Origin: Brachyspira sp.
Lineage (GTDB): Bacteria; Spirochaetota; Brachyspiria; Brachyspirales; Brachyspiraceae
Length of the DNA: 47,142 nucleotides
NCBI RefSeq assembly: GCF_029258575.1
Contig: NZ_JARHYI010000033.1
Location: 1-47,142, forward strand
Direction of reading: 5' to 3'
Shown: positions 15,700 through 23,828 of the stretch, piece after piece
How positions within the stretch are numbered: position 1 is the first letter of the stretch
Layout: each line of letters opens with the position of its first letter
Translations under genes and position numbers: made by a program
Notes under the pieces: model-generated
What the model was told of the DNA's origin: nothing
Database searches by the model: none
What the model saw: the letters and a program-made list of their open reading frames with translations, nothing else

Positions 15700-17088
15700 A
15701 TGAAAGAAAAATTATGGGGGGGACGCTTTTCTAAAGAGCTTAACAAAGAAGCTAATGATTTTAATTCCTCATTATCTTTTGATTGTAAGATGTACAGAGA
15801 GGATATTTTAGGTAGCATAGCACATGCTAAAATGCTTGGGGAATGTTCCATTATTGCTCTTGATGAAAGCGTAACTATAATAAATGCTTTAAAACAGATT
15901 TTAGATGATATAGAAAATAATAAACTTCAATTTGATTTTGAATTGGAGGATATTCATACTCAGGTTGAAAGATGGCTTATTGACAGAATAGGTGAAATCG
16001 GTAAGAAAGTACATACTGGAAGAAGCCGTAATGATCAGGTTGCTCTTGATCTGAGAATGCATTTAAAAAACAAAATTGAAAATATAAAATCTTTAATACT
16101 GGATTTAATTTCTATATTAATAAGCATTCAAAAAGAGCATACAAAAACTTATATGAGCGGTTATACTCATCTTCAAAGGGCACAGGTTATTACATTTGCA
16201 CATTATTTAGGTGCTTATGTTGAGATGTTTAAAAGGGATTTTGACAGGCTTAATGATGCCTATAAGAGAATAGATGTTATGCCTCTCGGTGCTGGTGCTT
16301 TGGCTTGTTCTACTTATAGCATTGACAATAAGAAAACTGCTGAAACTCTAAACTTCAAGAATGTTATGCTAAACTCATTAGATGCTGTATCTGACAGAGA
16401 TTTTGTTATTGAAACTGAATCTGCATTAGCTATAATAATGATGCATTTAAGCCGTTTTTCTGAAGAGTTTATTTTGTATTCTACTTCCGAGTTTAAGTTT
16501 TTGGAATTTGATGATGAGTTTACTACAGGTTCTAGTTTAATGCCTCAGAAGAAAAATCCAGACATACTTGAGCTTATTCGAGGAAAGACTGGCAGAGTTT
16601 ACGGTAATTTATTTTCAATACTTACTGTAATGAAATCTTTGCCTTTAGCGTACAATAAGGATATGCAAGAGGACAAAGAAGGTATATTTGATTCTTTGGA
16701 AAATGTTAAAAATTGTTTATCAATACTTCCTAATGTATTAAAAACAATGAAAGTTAATAAAGATAATATGCTTAATTCTGTTAATGAAGGTTTTTTGAAT
16801 GCTACTGAGGTTGCTGATTATCTTGTAAGGAAGGGCATGGCTTTTAGAGATGCTCATGGTGTTTCTGGGCGTCTTGTTGTATACTCAATTAATAATAACA
16901 AGAATCTTTCTACTCTCTCAATAGAAGAATATAAAAAAGAGTCTAACCTTTTTGAAGATGATATTTATTCATGCATTACTCCAGAGGCTCAGGTTTCTAA
17001 CAAGACTATGATTGGAAGTCCTAGCGAGAATGCTGTTTTGGAAGTGATAAAGATAAATGAAGAATGGCTAAAATCAAATAAAAAATAA
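15700..17088 (+). CDS. argH: Argininosuccinate lyase
   Basis: A 462-residue fumarase/aspartase-superfamily enzyme that splits argininosuccinate into arginine and fumarate. It has the signature GSSLMPQKKNPDILELIRGK (about 279-298), the early HTGRSRNDQVALDLR motif (about 104-118) and the YTHLQRAQ segment with the catalytic His. Length is normal. The start is ATG 15700 (MKEKLWGGRFSKE, classical N-terminus); its RBS GGAG is in the final codons of argG. A terminator follows. Confidence 0.97.
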   Translation: MKEKLWGGRFSKELNKEANDFNSSLSFDCKMYREDILGSIAHAKMLGECSIIALDESVTIINALKQILDDIENNKLQFDFELEDIHTQVERWLIDRIGEIGKKVHTGRSRNDQVALDLRMHLKNKIENIKSLILDLISILISIQKEHTKTYMSGYTHLQRAQVITFAHYLGAYVEMFKRDFDRLNDAYKRIDVMPLGAGALACSTYSIDNKKTAETLNFKNVMLNSLDAVSDRDFVIETESALAIIMMHLSRFSEEFILYSTSEFKFLEFDDEFTTGSSLMPQKKNPDILELIRGKTGRVYGNLFSILTVMKSLPLAYNKDMQEDKEGIFDSLENVKNCLSILPNVLKTMKVNKDNMLNSVNEGFLNATEVADYLVRKGMAFRDAHGVSGRLVVYSINNNKNLSTLSIEEYKKESNLFEDDIYSCITPEAQVSNKTMIGSPSENAVLEVIKINEEWLKSNKK

Positions 17089-17107
17089 TATATCATTAAT
17101 AAAATAT

Positions 17108-17146
17108 AAAAAACAAGGATGCTAAAAAATAGTGTTCTTGTTTTTT
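17108..17146 (+). terminator. Terminator of argGH
   Basis: AAACAAGGATGCTA pairs with TAGTGTTCTTGTTT (several G-U pairs), followed by T-rich sequence, 20 bases after the argH stop. Confidence 0.75.
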
Positions 17147-17202
17147 ATTGCATTATTAATATTACAAAAACCATATATTAAAAACTAATGAAAAAATTAT
17201 AT

Positions 17203-17225
17203 CAACTTTTTTTGCCAAAAAGTTG
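17203..17225. repeat. Small inverted repeat CAACTTTTT/AAAAAGTTG
   Basis: A perfect 9-bp inverted repeat around TTGCC, in the non-coding stretch before the Mrr remnant. It might be a terminator-like or repeat-derived hairpin. Confidence 0.45.
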
Positions 17226-17240
17226 CAAAAAGACAAATTA

Positions 17241-17430
17241 TTATAATTGTATTATCACATCATAAATATTTCTTGTTTCAAGTACTTTAACTCCTACTTC
17301 ATATTCACGCATATATTTTGTAAGTCTGTATCCGTTTATTAAAATATTTTATATCTTTTGATTCATCAACAACTCTTTTAGCATGCGGAGTATAATCTGA
17401 AGTAGTTATAAAAATTCCTATGTTTATTCC
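17241..17430 (-). pseudogene. C-terminal remnant of an Mrr-type restriction endonuclease
   Basis: Minus-strand translation gives GINIGIFITTSDYTPHAKR followed by VVDESKDIKYFN. Then, after a one-base shift, it gives INGYRLTKYMREYEVGVKV and ends LETRNIYDVIIQL. This is the hallmark C-terminal pattern of the Mrr_cat domain (G.fiTTs.ft..A...a..i.LI.G..L...M.eY.vGV). The catalytic D-QxK part is absent and the frame is broken, so this is a decayed fragment. It shows that a restriction-type gene once sat here. Confidence 0.7.
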
Positions 17431-17485
17431 ATATTATAAAATTTATTCTCATTCCCCCCTCTCATTCTCTTTTACTTATTTTAAA

Positions 17486-17647
17486 AGTTTCATTTTAGTT
17501 ATATTTTTTGCTTTAATAGAAATAATAACACCCCCCTAGCTTTATTTCAATTTTATACATATTCACCGCACGCAGAGTAAAGTTAGAAATATTAATTTGA
17601 TGATAATATAATTTAAATTAAATATATGGTTTTATTTACCGTGCGTA
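17486..17647. repeat. Dispersed imperfect repeat, copy 2
   Basis: About 162 bases similar to 5671-5836. CGCACGCAGAGTAAAGTTAG is close to the centre and CGTGCG is at the end, again forming a short inverted pair (CGCACG/CGTGCG). It stops within a few bases of the stop codon of the CAP gene. Confidence 0.55.
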
Positions 17648-17651
17648 ATGT

Positions 17652-18476
17652 TTAGTCAGTGAATACCTGTACCCAATATATTCTGCCATTATACTCAAAG
17701 ACACCAATGCCTATTTTTCCAAATTTCTTTTGAAGTATATTGGCTCTATGTCCAGTAGAGTTAAGCCAAGATTTCATAACATCATCGGCATCAAATTGTC
17801 CGTTAGCTATGTTTTCTCCTGCAGTTTTATATGATATGCTGTACTCTTTTAGAACTGTTGAGAAGTCTGTACGGTTTGGTCTTGTATGCGAGAATAGTTT
17901 TATTAGTTCCTCTGCTCTTTTTTGTGCAGCTTCAGTTAATTTTTTATCAATAATTAAAGAAGATGATATGTTATTTTGTTTTCTAGCTTCATTGCATAAC
18001 TGAACAACTCTTTCTCTTTCTTTTTGTATATTCAATTCTTGTTTTACTATATTATTATTTCTTGATGCAATATAAATCATAACCCAATATTTTTGACCGT
18101 TATTTTCATATACAGAAACAGCGGCATGAGTAAAATTTTTATTTAATACCAAATTTTTCTTACTTTCTAATATTTGTTTGAATATATCTTTAGCATTCAT
18201 ATTTGCAATGATAGAACCTTCGGAATATGATGAAAACTGTATATTATTATCTTGTAATGCAGTGGATTTTTTTATTCTGTTTGCTATTTCTTTAGCTCTT
18301 TGATCTGCGGCATTTTGTAATTGAGTTTCTGTTTTATACTCGTTTAATCCTGATTTTTTTCTTTCATTATTTATTAAATTGAATATTTGATTGGCTTCAT
18401 TGTTTTGAGTGTATGATATTTGATTGAAAAGTACTAAAGTAAATAATGTTAAAAATATAATTTGAAAAAATTTCAT
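17652..18476 (-). CDS. Secreted protein with two CAP/SCP domains
   Basis: A 274-residue exported protein. Residues 1-23 are a signal peptide. About 28-145 form a degenerate CAP-like domain (IFNLINNERKKSGL, then YWVMIYIASRN) that lacks the GEN and GHR.NIL motifs. About 155-274 form a well-preserved CAP domain with FSHTRP, TAGENIANG, SWLNSTGHRANIL and GIGVFEYNGRIYWVQVF. It keeps the usual His, Glu and His positions of bacterial SCP/PR1-like proteins, whose role is generally unknown. The two domains probably arose by internal duplication with decay of the first. The gene is alone, flanked by repeats on both sides. Confidence 0.88.
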   Translation of the reverse strand: MKFFQIIFLTLFTLVLFNQISYTQNNEANQIFNLINNERKKSGLNEYKTETQLQNAADQRAKEIANRIKKSTALQDNNIQFSSYSEGSIIANMNAKDIFKQILESKKNLVLNKNFTHAAVSVYENNGQKYWVMIYIASRNNNIVKQELNIQKERERVVQLCNEARKQNNISSSLIIDKKLTEAAQKRAEELIKLFSHTRPNRTDFSTVLKEYSISYKTAGENIANGQFDADDVMKSWLNSTGHRANILQKKFGKIGIGVFEYNGRIYWVQVFTD

Positions 18477-18680
18477 TTTGAATTCCTTGAATGTATTATT
18501 TACAAAAATAATATTCTCTTATATAATTATAATACTACAAAACATAAAAACTGTTTAATTATAAAGTAAGTAAAATTTAAATTATATATATTTTATAATT
18601 AATTGATAAACAATTATTTATAGTTGATGTGATTAAGTTGTTAAAGTTTTTAAAGCTAGTTTATATTAGTAATATATTAA
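18477..18680. other. AT-rich spacer upstream of the CAP gene
   Basis: No gene or clear signal seen. It presumably carries the minus-strand promoter of the CAP gene. Confidence 0.4.
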
Positions 18681-19295
18681 AATGAATTTATTTGATTATT
18701 ATGAGCATTGAGAACATAACAAAATAATTAAGTTAGTGGAGCATTCGTTAATTTTAATTATTGATTAATTATATGCGTATGCGAACATAATAATAAAATT
18801 TAGTGATCCGAGCAGTTGATAATTTTAATTATTGATTAATTATATGCGTATGCGAACATAATAATAAAATTTAGCAAGCCGAGCAGTTGATAATTTTAAT
18901 TATTGATTAATTATAGGCGTATGCGAACATAATAATAAAATTTAGTGATCCGAGCAGTTGATAATTTTAATTATTGATTAATTATAGGCGTATACGAACA
19001 TAATAATAAAATTTAGTGATCCGAGCAGTTGATAATTTTAATTATTGATTAATTATAGGCGTATGCGAACATAATAATAAAATTTAGCAAGCCGAGCAGT
19101 CAATAATTTTAATTATTGATTAATTATAGGCGTATGGAACATAATAATAAAATTTAGTGATCCGAAGCAGCAAATAAATTTATTTATTTGCTTATTATAG
19201 GCGTAGGCGAACATAATAATAAAATTTAGTGAGCCGAAGCAGCAAATAAATTTATTTATTTGCTTATTATAGGCGTAGGCGAACATAATAATAAA
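18681..19295 (+). repeat. 71-bp tandem repeat array (eight units plus partial ends)
   Basis: The block GAACATAATAATAAAATTTA recurs at 18783, 18854, 18925, 18996, 19067, 19137 and 19209. A degenerate first copy starts at 18712, and a partial last copy at 19281. Periods are 71, 71, 71, 71, 71, 70, 72 and 72 bases. Each unit contains a hairpin with loop TTTA. Variable positions (GTGATCC, GCAAGCC or GTGAGCC) mix between units. The partial last unit runs into the RBS of the next gene. Confidence 0.95.
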
Positions 19296-19304
19296 GGAAG
19301 GAAT

Positions 19305-20864
19305 ATGAAATATATAGTAAGTTTAACAGGTGCCACAGGAAATATGGGGCTTGAAACATTAAGACAATTAATGGAAATAGAAGATATAGAAACAGTAAAA
19401 ATATTGGTTAGAAAAGAAAGTATAAAGGCATCAGAAAAATTAAAAAAGAAGTATGGTAATAGGTTAAAAGTTGTTATAGGTTATTTGTATGAGAGAGATG
19501 ACTGCGAAAAATTGATAAAAGACTGTCATTATGTACTTAATCTTGCAGCAGTAATACCTCCTAATTCTGATAAATATCCTAAACTTACACATCTTACAAA
19601 TTTTGTAGGTGTTAAGCATATAGTAGATATATTGGAAGGAATGGAAAAAGATAAGCGTCCGAAACTTGTTCATATATCAACAGTAGCACTTTATGGCAAT
19701 CGTAATGAAAAACATCCTTGGGGTAGAGTAGGGGATCCGTTATTGATAAGTTCTTATGATGTTTATTCATATTCAAAATTGAAAGGTGAGAGATATGTTC
19801 TTGATTCATCATTAGAAAATAGGGCTATAATAAGACAAACAGCAATGCTTCATGGCCGAATGCTTACTGATAATATGAGCGATGGGCTTATGTTTCATAC
19901 TTGTTATAATGCACCTCTTGAATGGGCTACTGCTAGAGATAGCGGACTTTTAATGAAAAGGATTATTGAAGAAGATATAAAAGGAAAATTGGACGATTAT
20001 TTTTGGAAGGGCTGTTTTAATTTGGGAAGTAAGGCAGAAAATAGACTTATAGGTTATGATACTTTTAATGATGGATTCAAACTTATAGGCGGTTCTACAA
20101 AAAAATATATGAAGCCTCATTGGAATGCTACAAGAAATTTCCATGGACTTTGGTATTATGACGGATATAAACTTGAAGAATTATTTTCCTATCAAAAAGA
20201 ATCTGTTACTGATTATTGGAATGAAATAGGCAAAACCCATTGGTATTATACATTCGGCAAAATAGTACCTCCTTCTTTAATATCATTCTTCGCTATACAA
20301 AGACTTTTACCTCATCCTAATTCGCCTGCATATTGGAGAAAAAACGGAGAGAAAGGAAAGATTATAGCTACATTCGGAAGTGAGGAGGCTTTTGATAATC
20401 TTCCTAAAAAATGGGAGAATTTTAATTTGCTTTTTGAAAATAAAGATTCTCAGGGTAATTATATAGATTATAAGGCTTTACTTGATATAAAAAATGCTAA
20501 ACTTCTTGATCATGGCTATGATGAAAATAAAAAAGACAGTGAAATAGATTTGGAAGATTTGAAAAAGGCTGCAGAGTTCAGAGGTGGAAAACTTTTAAGC
20601 ACTAGCATGACCAAAGGAGATTTGCATACAAAATTAAAATGGTCTTGTGCTGAAGGTCATGAATTTGAGGCTTCTCCATTTACTATAATAAAAGCTGGTC
20701 ATTGGTGCGAGGAATGTATACCTGATTATACCTGGAATTTCGATATGCTTGCTAAGAAAAATCCTTTCTTTGCTCAGGTTTGGTATGATTCGCATGAAAA
20801 AGATGAGAATATAATTTATTATTTTGATGAGGATTTCAAAGCCCATTATAAAAAGGTAGATTAA
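19305..20864 (+). CDS. Extended-SDR NAD-dependent epimerase/dehydratase with C-terminal zinc ribbon
   Basis: A 519-residue protein. Residues 1 to about 230 form an extended SDR Rossmann domain: VSLTGATGNMGLET near the N-terminus, the VLNLAAVIPPNSD region and the YSYSKLKGERYV catalytic Y-x3-K. The last third departs from the SDR fold. At about 455-495 it holds a treble-clef or zinc-ribbon-like unit with WSCAEGHEFEASP and GHWCEECIPDYTW (two CxH/CxxC pairs), more usual in nuclease-associated zinc-ribbon proteins. Start is ATG 19305, with GGAAGGA just upstream; the frame is open further up, but that part lies in the repeat array. Substrate is unknown, perhaps a nucleotide sugar. Confidence 0.8.
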   Translation: MKYIVSLTGATGNMGLETLRQLMEIEDIETVKILVRKESIKASEKLKKKYGNRLKVVIGYLYERDDCEKLIKDCHYVLNLAAVIPPNSDKYPKLTHLTNFVGVKHIVDILEGMEKDKRPKLVHISTVALYGNRNEKHPWGRVGDPLLISSYDVYSYSKLKGERYVLDSSLENRAIIRQTAMLHGRMLTDNMSDGLMFHTCYNAPLEWATARDSGLLMKRIIEEDIKGKLDDYFWKGCFNLGSKAENRLIGYDTFNDGFKLIGGSTKKYMKPHWNATRNFHGLWYYDGYKLEELFSYQKESVTDYWNEIGKTHWYYTFGKIVPPSLISFFAIQRLLPHPNSPAYWRKNGEKGKIIATFGSEEAFDNLPKKWENFNLLFENKDSQGNYIDYKALLDIKNAKLLDHGYDENKKDSEIDLEDLKKAAEFRGGKLLSTSMTKGDLHTKLKWSCAEGHEFEASPFTIIKAGHWCEECIPDYTWNFDMLAKKNPFFAQVWYDSHEKDENIIYYFDEDFKAHYKKVD

Positions 20865-22806: not shown

Positions 22807-22880
22807 ATATTATTCTAACGCTTTTTTTGAAATTTCCGAAAATGAAAAAAAACAATATAAAAAATAGTTTGGAGCGGAAA

Positions 22881-23828
22881 ATGATAAAGAAGTCTTTAGC
22901 AATATTAATAGTTATATTATTAACTTTTACAATATCATGTCGAAAACCTTCAGAAGGTAATATAGAAGATGATTATATTAATGAAATAGGGAAAGAATAT
23001 CAAAATTCATCTAGTAATGATGTTGTAGTAGAAACTAATAATGGCTTATCATCAGGCATTGATAATACTAATGGCACTAATAATAGCTTATCATCAGGTA
23101 TTGATAATACTAATGATATTTATATAGAAACAGAAAATAATAATACTCAAGTAAATAATGATAATCAATTTAATCAAAATGTTTCTCAAGAAAATAATAT
23201 ACCTGTATATACTGCAGAACCTGCTAAAAAAAGACCTTTAAAAGCTACTATAGATACTTTTTACAGTCCTTGGACTTCTAAAAATGATCCGCTAATGATT
23301 AGAGAGATAAGAGTTATGATAGCCAATAAAGAATATACTCAGGCTTTAAACTATATAAATAAATTAGACTTCAATAATTTGCCAGCTGATGTTGATATAG
23401 GACATTTATATCAATTCAAAGGTATAGTTCATTATTTCCTTTCCAAAAATGATAAATCAAATATAGCTTTAGCAGATGAATGCTTTAAAAAAGTTGAAGG
23501 CTTAACTAAAATAGAAAAATTCAAGCCTCTTTCATTATTATGGAATGGTATGTTATATCAAACTTATTCTACAGATGAAAATAAGCTTAAAGAGGCTATT
23601 ACTTTACTTGACAGAGTTATTACAGAGTATCCTAGAACTAGATTTGCTAATGATGCTGTATTCTATAAGGCTGTAACTATTAAAAAATTAGGTATGCCTG
23701 AAAATGAATATAATGATCTTTTCCTATCTATAAAAAGAGGCGGTTTTGTTGATACTTTGGTATTCTCTCAAGTTATAAATGACTATGTACCTGCTAATGA
23801 TTTAGTAGATAAAGAAATGGTTAAATAA
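22881..23828 (+). CDS. Lipoprotein with TPR-like C-terminal half
   Basis: A 315-residue probable lipoprotein. The signal sequence ends in the lipobox LLTFTISC, so Cys near residue 22 would be lipidated. An Asn/Ser-rich linker follows, containing a near-perfect duplication of about 14 residues (SLSSGIDNTN). The C-terminal half (about 145-315) is helical and TPR-like, with ALNYINKLDF, QFKGIVHYFL and RTRFANDAVFYKAVTIKKLG. This resembles the periplasmic TPR lipoproteins that assist outer-membrane assembly, but no specific family is certain. ATG 22881 has GGAG seven bases upstream; upstream in-frame ATGs have no RBS. Confidence 0.8.
   Translation: MIKKSLAILIVILLTFTISCRKPSEGNIEDDYINEIGKEYQNSSSNDVVVETNNGLSSGIDNTNGTNNSLSSGIDNTNDIYIETENNNTQVNNDNQFNQNVSQENNIPVYTAEPAKKRPLKATIDTFYSPWTSKNDPLMIREIRVMIANKEYTQALNYINKLDFNNLPADVDIGHLYQFKGIVHYFLSKNDKSNIALADECFKKVEGLTKIEKFKPLSLLWNGMLYQTYSTDENKLKEAITLLDRVITEYPRTRFANDAVFYKAVTIKKLGMPENEYNDLFLSIKRGGFVDTLVFSQVINDYVPANDLVDKEMVK

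Follow-up and report, generated by a model that had tools for sequence, protein, structure and literature searches.

The tandem array that precedes an epimerase/dehydratase gene of Brachyspira sp. consists of eight head-to-tail copies of a short element that is dispersed through the genus. The array lies in a stretch of 47,142 nucleotides, here called the window. With a probability of roughly 0.6, the array and its relatives represent a hairpin cassette of RNA leaders, mobile or amplifying, that was joined to the Shine-Dalgarno (SD) sequence of a gene and then tandemly duplicated. Across the family the stems covary, the units are oriented with the downstream gene and many of them directly adjoin its ribosome-binding site.

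The array in the window

In a TRF analysis of the window, positions 18749-19295 received by far the highest score (period 71, 7.7 copies, 93% matches), and a covariance model resolved eight units at 18731-19294 with E-values from 2e-11 to 1e-20 (Table 1). A sequence-only reading of this DNA had reported a 71-bp tandem repeat at 18681-19295. The repeat is real, as is the array, but its core begins only at 18731; at most one decayed unit is contained in 18668-18725 (covariance model E 0.64). When anchored on GAACATAA, the units are 70-72 bp long, and their TTTA loop is constant. The stems quoted in that reading were found in their places, TCAATAAT-TTTA-ATTATTGA at 19100-19119 and AGCAAATAAA-TTTA-TTTATTTGCT at 19169-19192.

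The stem of units 2-5, GTTGATAAT/ATTATTGAT, includes wobble pairs. Unit 6 differs from these units in the 5' arm alone (T.G to C-G, G.T to A-T) and is better paired, so that the step from units 2-5 to unit 6 is not a paired change. The inner stem of units 7-8 differs from that of units 1-6. The two groups are subfamilies of one dispersed element, and the paired difference between their stems is therefore a difference of type. Among the window units only unit 8 retains a complete outer stem, and the z-score of its RNA fold is -2.97, compared with -1.6 to +0.5 for the upstream units tested. The suggestion that the last unit merges with the leader of the next gene was confirmed, and such a junction is frequent across the family: the last base of unit 8 is 19294, the SD sequence (AGGAAGGA) follows from 19295 and the ATG is at 19305. 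The predicted accessibility of this SD sequence is nearly constant across unit numbers (0.71-0.98 unpaired).

Two further features of the window lie beyond the epimerase gene. A 154-aa ORF at 20869-21333 matches the N6_N4_Mtase DNA methylase profile in the C-terminal part only (positions 142-216) and resembles a methylase gene that has been broken or split. At 23034-23115, within the ORF at 22827-23828, a 42-bp repeat occurs in two near-identical copies, as a repeated SSGIDNTNGTNNS-type stretch.

Table 1. Coordinates of the hairpin units and of the neighbouring genes in the window
Feature	Position	Strand	Evidence
Divergent upstream gene, CAP (SCP/PR1) domain protein	17652..18476	-	ORF; PF00188 E 2.8e-28
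Hairpin unit 1, SD-distal, decayed	18731..18796	+	R1 52.8 bits, E 2.4e-11
Hairpin unit 2	18802..18867	+	R1 56.6 bits
Hairpin unit 3	18873..18938	+	R1 64.1 bits
Hairpin unit 4	18944..19009	+	R1 55.9 bits
Hairpin unit 5	19015..19080	+	R1 60.8 bits
Hairpin unit 6, inner stem TCAATAAT/ATTATTGA	19086..19150	+	R1 59.0 bits
Hairpin unit 7, inner stem AGCAAATAAA/TTTATTTGCT; outer stem broken by head GATCC	19156..19222	+	R1 79.6 bits
Hairpin unit 8, SD-proximal, outer stem GTGAGCC...GGCGAAC	19228..19294	+	R1 88.3 bits, E 1.1e-20; RNA fold -16.7 kcal/mol, z -2.97
Conserved unpaired tail CAUAAUAAUAA of unit 8	19284..19294	+	conserved alignment columns
Shine-Dalgarno region of next gene, adjoining unit 8	19295..19302	+	sequence
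Downstream gene, NAD-dependent epimerase/dehydratase family protein	19305..20864	+	ORF; PF01370 E 2e-14

A hairpin family of the genus

The window array, used as a query, found matches in 20 of 26 Brachyspira genomes, chiefly as dispersed single or double copies. Model R1, applied to no more than 150 candidates per genome, extended this to at least 714 matches in 22 of the 26, with up to 84 in one genome, and had no match outside Brachyspira among 198 genomes sampled from the spirochaete phylum. Four Brachyspira genomes (G001, G012, G013 and G019) contain no detectable unit; their relatives contain more than 50. No curated Rfam model matched, positions 17000-19600 giving chance-level matches only (E 2-5), and no earlier description of Brachyspira hairpin repeats was found in the literature searched. 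The family is apparently undescribed so far. The sequence-only reading overlooked the family, its outer stem with tandem G.A, the adherence to the sense strand and the polar build of the arrays.

The unit, of about 68 nt, is a nested hairpin composed of a Y-R pair, a tandem G.A mismatch, a short outer stem and a variable inner stem of about 10 bp, with a 7-nt bulge on the 3' side and an unpaired tail, CAUARCAAUAA. The 5' consensus reads AG-Y-GA-GCC-GAA-GCC and is followed by the inner hairpin with its UUUA loop; the 3' consensus comprises the bulge NNUUAUA, GGC-GNA-GGC-GA-R-C and the tail AUARCAAUAA. A second type of outer stem is GAAAAAGCC/GGCTTTTTC. Of 128 distinct units, 108 retain the tandem G.A between the outer pairs, and within an array one unit type is repeated head to tail.

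Hairpins repeated in intergenic gaps might be transcription terminators or attenuators. The subtype GAAAAAGCC...GGCTTTTTC does have A and T tracts, and unrelated hairpins adjacent to the units end in T runs. In the main type, however, the inner stem is followed by NNUUAUAGGCG instead of a U-run, and units are located 10-17 nt before start codons within operons and among prophage structural genes, so this reading deserves hardly any credence.

Other nested-hairpin families, with a similar architecture and a YARCAATAA tail, share the same gaps. One neighbouring family, AAAAATTGTGAGC...GCGAACAATTTTTATTAGCAATAA, includes the GYGAG/CGARC core of the main family, and a further one is GCGATAAAC...GTTTATCGCTAGCAATAA. 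Loci with other nested-hairpin families are L121:9340-10250, L092:8920-9350, L125:8960-9250 and L103:12990-13170. Upstream of serA (L135, L138, L139, L140) small hairpins are inserted within units, forming hairpins in hairpins; the terminal loop contains, for example, CGCCTAAGGCGGACAAAGT, and the internal loop ACC..TAGGCACCTTAAAGGTG.

Covariation and its limits

In an alignment of 26 units, 96.7% of the cells are paired and 14 of 18 pairs are altered on both sides. The observed covariation was reached in none of 500 shuffles, and slid controls were 32-41% paired. A model-free test required AGxGAG and CGAyCATA to lie 30-70 nt apart and left x and y free. It yielded 102 matches, in which x-y was CG (41), TA (38), TG (18) or CA (5); the other 12 of the 16 combinations were absent, and shuffled sequence gave 2 matches. 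The excess of TG over CA, 18:5 in a small sample (14:4 when distinct), is expected for a sense-strand structure, since TG represents a G.U wobble there. In the columns aligned by the covariance model G.U outnumbers A.C by 96 to 29, a supportive asymmetry, though one that the model itself partly creates.

The arrays themselves present another picture. Median unit identity is 0.94 inside arrays versus 0.62 between arrays, and inside arrays paired sites change at about the same rate as unpaired sites. About half of the single stem changes break a pair, which means that many units are not under constraint and that the structure is kept at the family level and not in each unit. It is kept at the founding of copies or in privileged copies. 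The earlier proposal that paired stem changes imply selection on structure is thus supported for the whole family, where the covariation test over more units gave a strong result, but it is not borne out for the single units of an array, where recent changes go uncompensated. As looked for in structured cis-RNAs, the family has helices that covary and that lie in sense orientation to the adjacent genes.

Orientation and position at genes

Placement relative to genes called from ORFs was determined in 1.17 Mb from ten genomes for the 89 arrays that scored 40 bits or more. Gaps between co-directional genes contained 75 arrays in sense orientation and 1 in antisense; counting one array per downstream gene family, the ratio was 38 to 1 (p 1.5e-10). 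Convergent gene pairs accounted for 7 of 48 non-redundant cases. When arrays of all scores were included, 48 of 100 ended no more than 30 nt ahead of a start codon in the same direction, with 10-17 nt as the usual distance, and in the closest arrays the tail adjoins the SD sequence (CATARCAATAA, then TAGGAG...ATG). Several arrays stop 40-400 nt short of the start codon, and the distance from the upstream stop codon is spread. The genes downstream include serA and those encoding ribulose-phosphate 3-epimerase, diol-dehydratase reactivase and a phage major capsid protein (Phage_cap_E), the last being preceded at 11 nt by a three-unit array.

Based on the coding-strand bias and the frequent location before the ribosome-binding site, the repeats most likely act as parts of mRNA leaders, and it may be as folded pieces of such leaders that they are kept or spread. 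The sense bias could also arise if antisense copies were selected against, even though the sense copies brought no benefit.

Units occur in very tight gaps between prophage structural genes at L120:7065-7433 and L098:8525-9820. Two IMG/VR contigs, L190 and L186, carry true units, which score 72.6 and 56.3 bits, and are probably proviral Brachyspira sequence. A search for named phages or plasmids that carry the unit gave no credible match.

Copy number and polarity of the arrays

The site of the window array is empty in other species: the orthologous gene has no unit nearby in any of 11 other Brachyspira records. Ahead of serA and rpe the number of units is 0, 1 or up to about 8, depending on the species, with differing inner-stem types, and the SD sequence that follows these arrays resembles that at empty sites. 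The hypervariability suspected for the window locus was thus encountered between species. Filled and empty pairs with flanks about 97% identical were also found at prophage gene junctions. At the cleanest of these the insert is about 100 nt long and the downstream SD sequence is intact. No target-site duplication was seen at this junction (L089 versus L127/L098/L099); other junctions were too diverged.

The empty sites, the range from 0 to more than 80 copies between species, the multi-copy dispersal that extends to prophage genes and the decay of in-array copies without compensation would all suit a purely selfish, MITE-like DNA repeat. Folded copies alone would then be copied by some transposase, the host would derive nothing from them, and sense orientation and SD adjacency would characterize the mere survivors of selection. 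Against such a repeat stand the cleanest junction, where no target-site duplication was seen, the lack of a Y1 transposase in all 26 genomes and the lack of a reverse transcriptase in most copy-rich ones. Moreover, the BOX, RUP and SPRITE repeats of Streptococcus pneumoniae, which are regarded as parasites, occur preferentially between convergent genes (PMC3049150), whereas the Brachyspira units are sense-oriented, lie in co-directional gaps and adjoin the SD sequence. A selfish origin of this kind is possible but rather unlikely.

Multi-unit arrays are polar. The SD-proximal unit scored above the SD-distal unit in 31 of 38 arrays (31:7, p 1e-4), and in 27 of the 38 no other unit scored higher than it, with 13.8 expected. 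The closely related serA arrays of genomes G009 and G025 are 94% alike in their SD-distal units and 59% alike in their SD-proximal units, which favours addition at the SD end. Judged from these sequences, the polarity could result either from growth at the SD end or from constraint on the last unit.

Locus L085:11420-11560 retains a hairpin-less GCGAGCATAACAATAATAGGAG where L125:12030-12260 has a full unit. The difference is consistent with a deletion between the GCGAG sequences at the unit feet. This apparent hairpin loss between direct repeats, the expansion of arrays by identical units and the hairpins nested within hairpins are what would be seen if replication itself made the repeat, with hairpin-templated copying (quasi-palindrome correction) and slippage making and mending the stems without selection. 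Such processes leave unexplained the 38:1 gene-sense bias, the conserved unpaired tandem G.A and tail, the dispersal over hundreds of loci and the excess of T.G over C.A. A replication-made repeat is disfavoured and very improbable.

Comparison with known repeat systems

The units belong to none of the tested families. By analogy, they may work like the small co-transcribed palindromic repeats BOX, ERIC and Correia. ERIC and Correia/NEMIS are palindromic, are co-transcribed and can alter mRNA decay by orientation-dependent cleavage. The Brachyspira units resemble them as palindromic repeats that are probably transcribed with genes; the sequences are unrelated, and SD adjacency and tandem arrays are not a hallmark of ERIC or Correia/NEMIS. 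Integron attC sites lie between co-directional genes in sense orientation and fold into structures whose terminal stem varies, and all of these traits recur in Brachyspira. However, attC precedes cassettes whereas the units precede dispersed housekeeping and prophage genes; attC was rejected, as both consensus and position are unfit and the RYYYAAC and GTTRRRY boxes are absent from the consensus. The PeSL (promoter-early stem-loop) cassettes of T4-type phages are mobile stem-loops between phage genes and carry a promoter. The units share with them the mobile stem-loops at phage genes but have no evident promoter. A promoter inside the unit, considered by eye, was set aside because there is no constant -35 where the stems vary.

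BOX, RUP and SPRITE are likewise small, dispersed, intergenic and RNA-folding, with variable tandem modules (boxB in BOX), and they are co-transcribed (PMC3049150), as the Brachyspira units probably are. BOX is assembled from boxA-boxB(n)-boxC modules, whereas the Brachyspira units lack boxA and boxC and have stems that covary family-wide. The REP/BIME elements of the TnpA-REP/RAYT system are also short palindromes in many intergenic copies, sometimes clustered and with conserved stem mismatches, but they have a GTAG tetranucleotide 5' of the palindrome, in contrast to the feet AGYGAG and CATARCAATAA of the Brachyspira units (PMC8266576). A REP/RAYT system was rejected: PF01797 (Y1/TnpA-REP, IS200) was found in 5 of 14 controls and in none of the 26 Brachyspira genomes. 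A retro-element served by a resident reverse transcriptase was also rejected, with RVT_1 in only 7 of the 26 and absent from most of the copy-rich genomes.

Proposed origin and role

The gene-sense orientation, the conserved unpaired motifs and the joint with the SD sequence point to action or propagation at the RNA level. According to the preferred model of an amplifying leader cassette, a copy would have been added immediately 5' of the SD sequence that serves the epimerase gene and then multiplied by tandem duplication or unequal recombination. A fresh copy of the other stem type, now units 7-8, would have joined at the SD end while the older upstream units decayed. In its most probable role, the RNA hairpin with its AU-rich unpaired tail would shield or separate the downstream ribosome-binding site: as a leader or intercistronic hairpin it would keep the SD region open, AU-rich and apart from upstream RNA. 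Alternatively, it might protect the transcript from decay. Only the SD-proximal unit would need to be intact.

A bolder version, which we regard as doubtful, assumes a novel type of mobile element, one inserted in sense orientation exactly at ribosome-binding sites, whose arrays grow polarly at the SD end. Such an insertion rule would explain the orientation, the head-to-tail arrays, the SD adjacency and the SD-distal decay. If true, it would point to targeting via RNA, or via the SD sequence itself, by some enzyme.

Members of Brachyspira are gut pathogens of pigs, poultry and humans, and the units would be the first intergenic hairpin-repeat family described for the genus. With covariation at the family level and a gene-oriented, SD-anchored position, the question of whether the element is a parasite or a regulatory RNA becomes directly testable. 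The arrays are candidate natural typing markers and candidate leader elements that may tune genes within operons.
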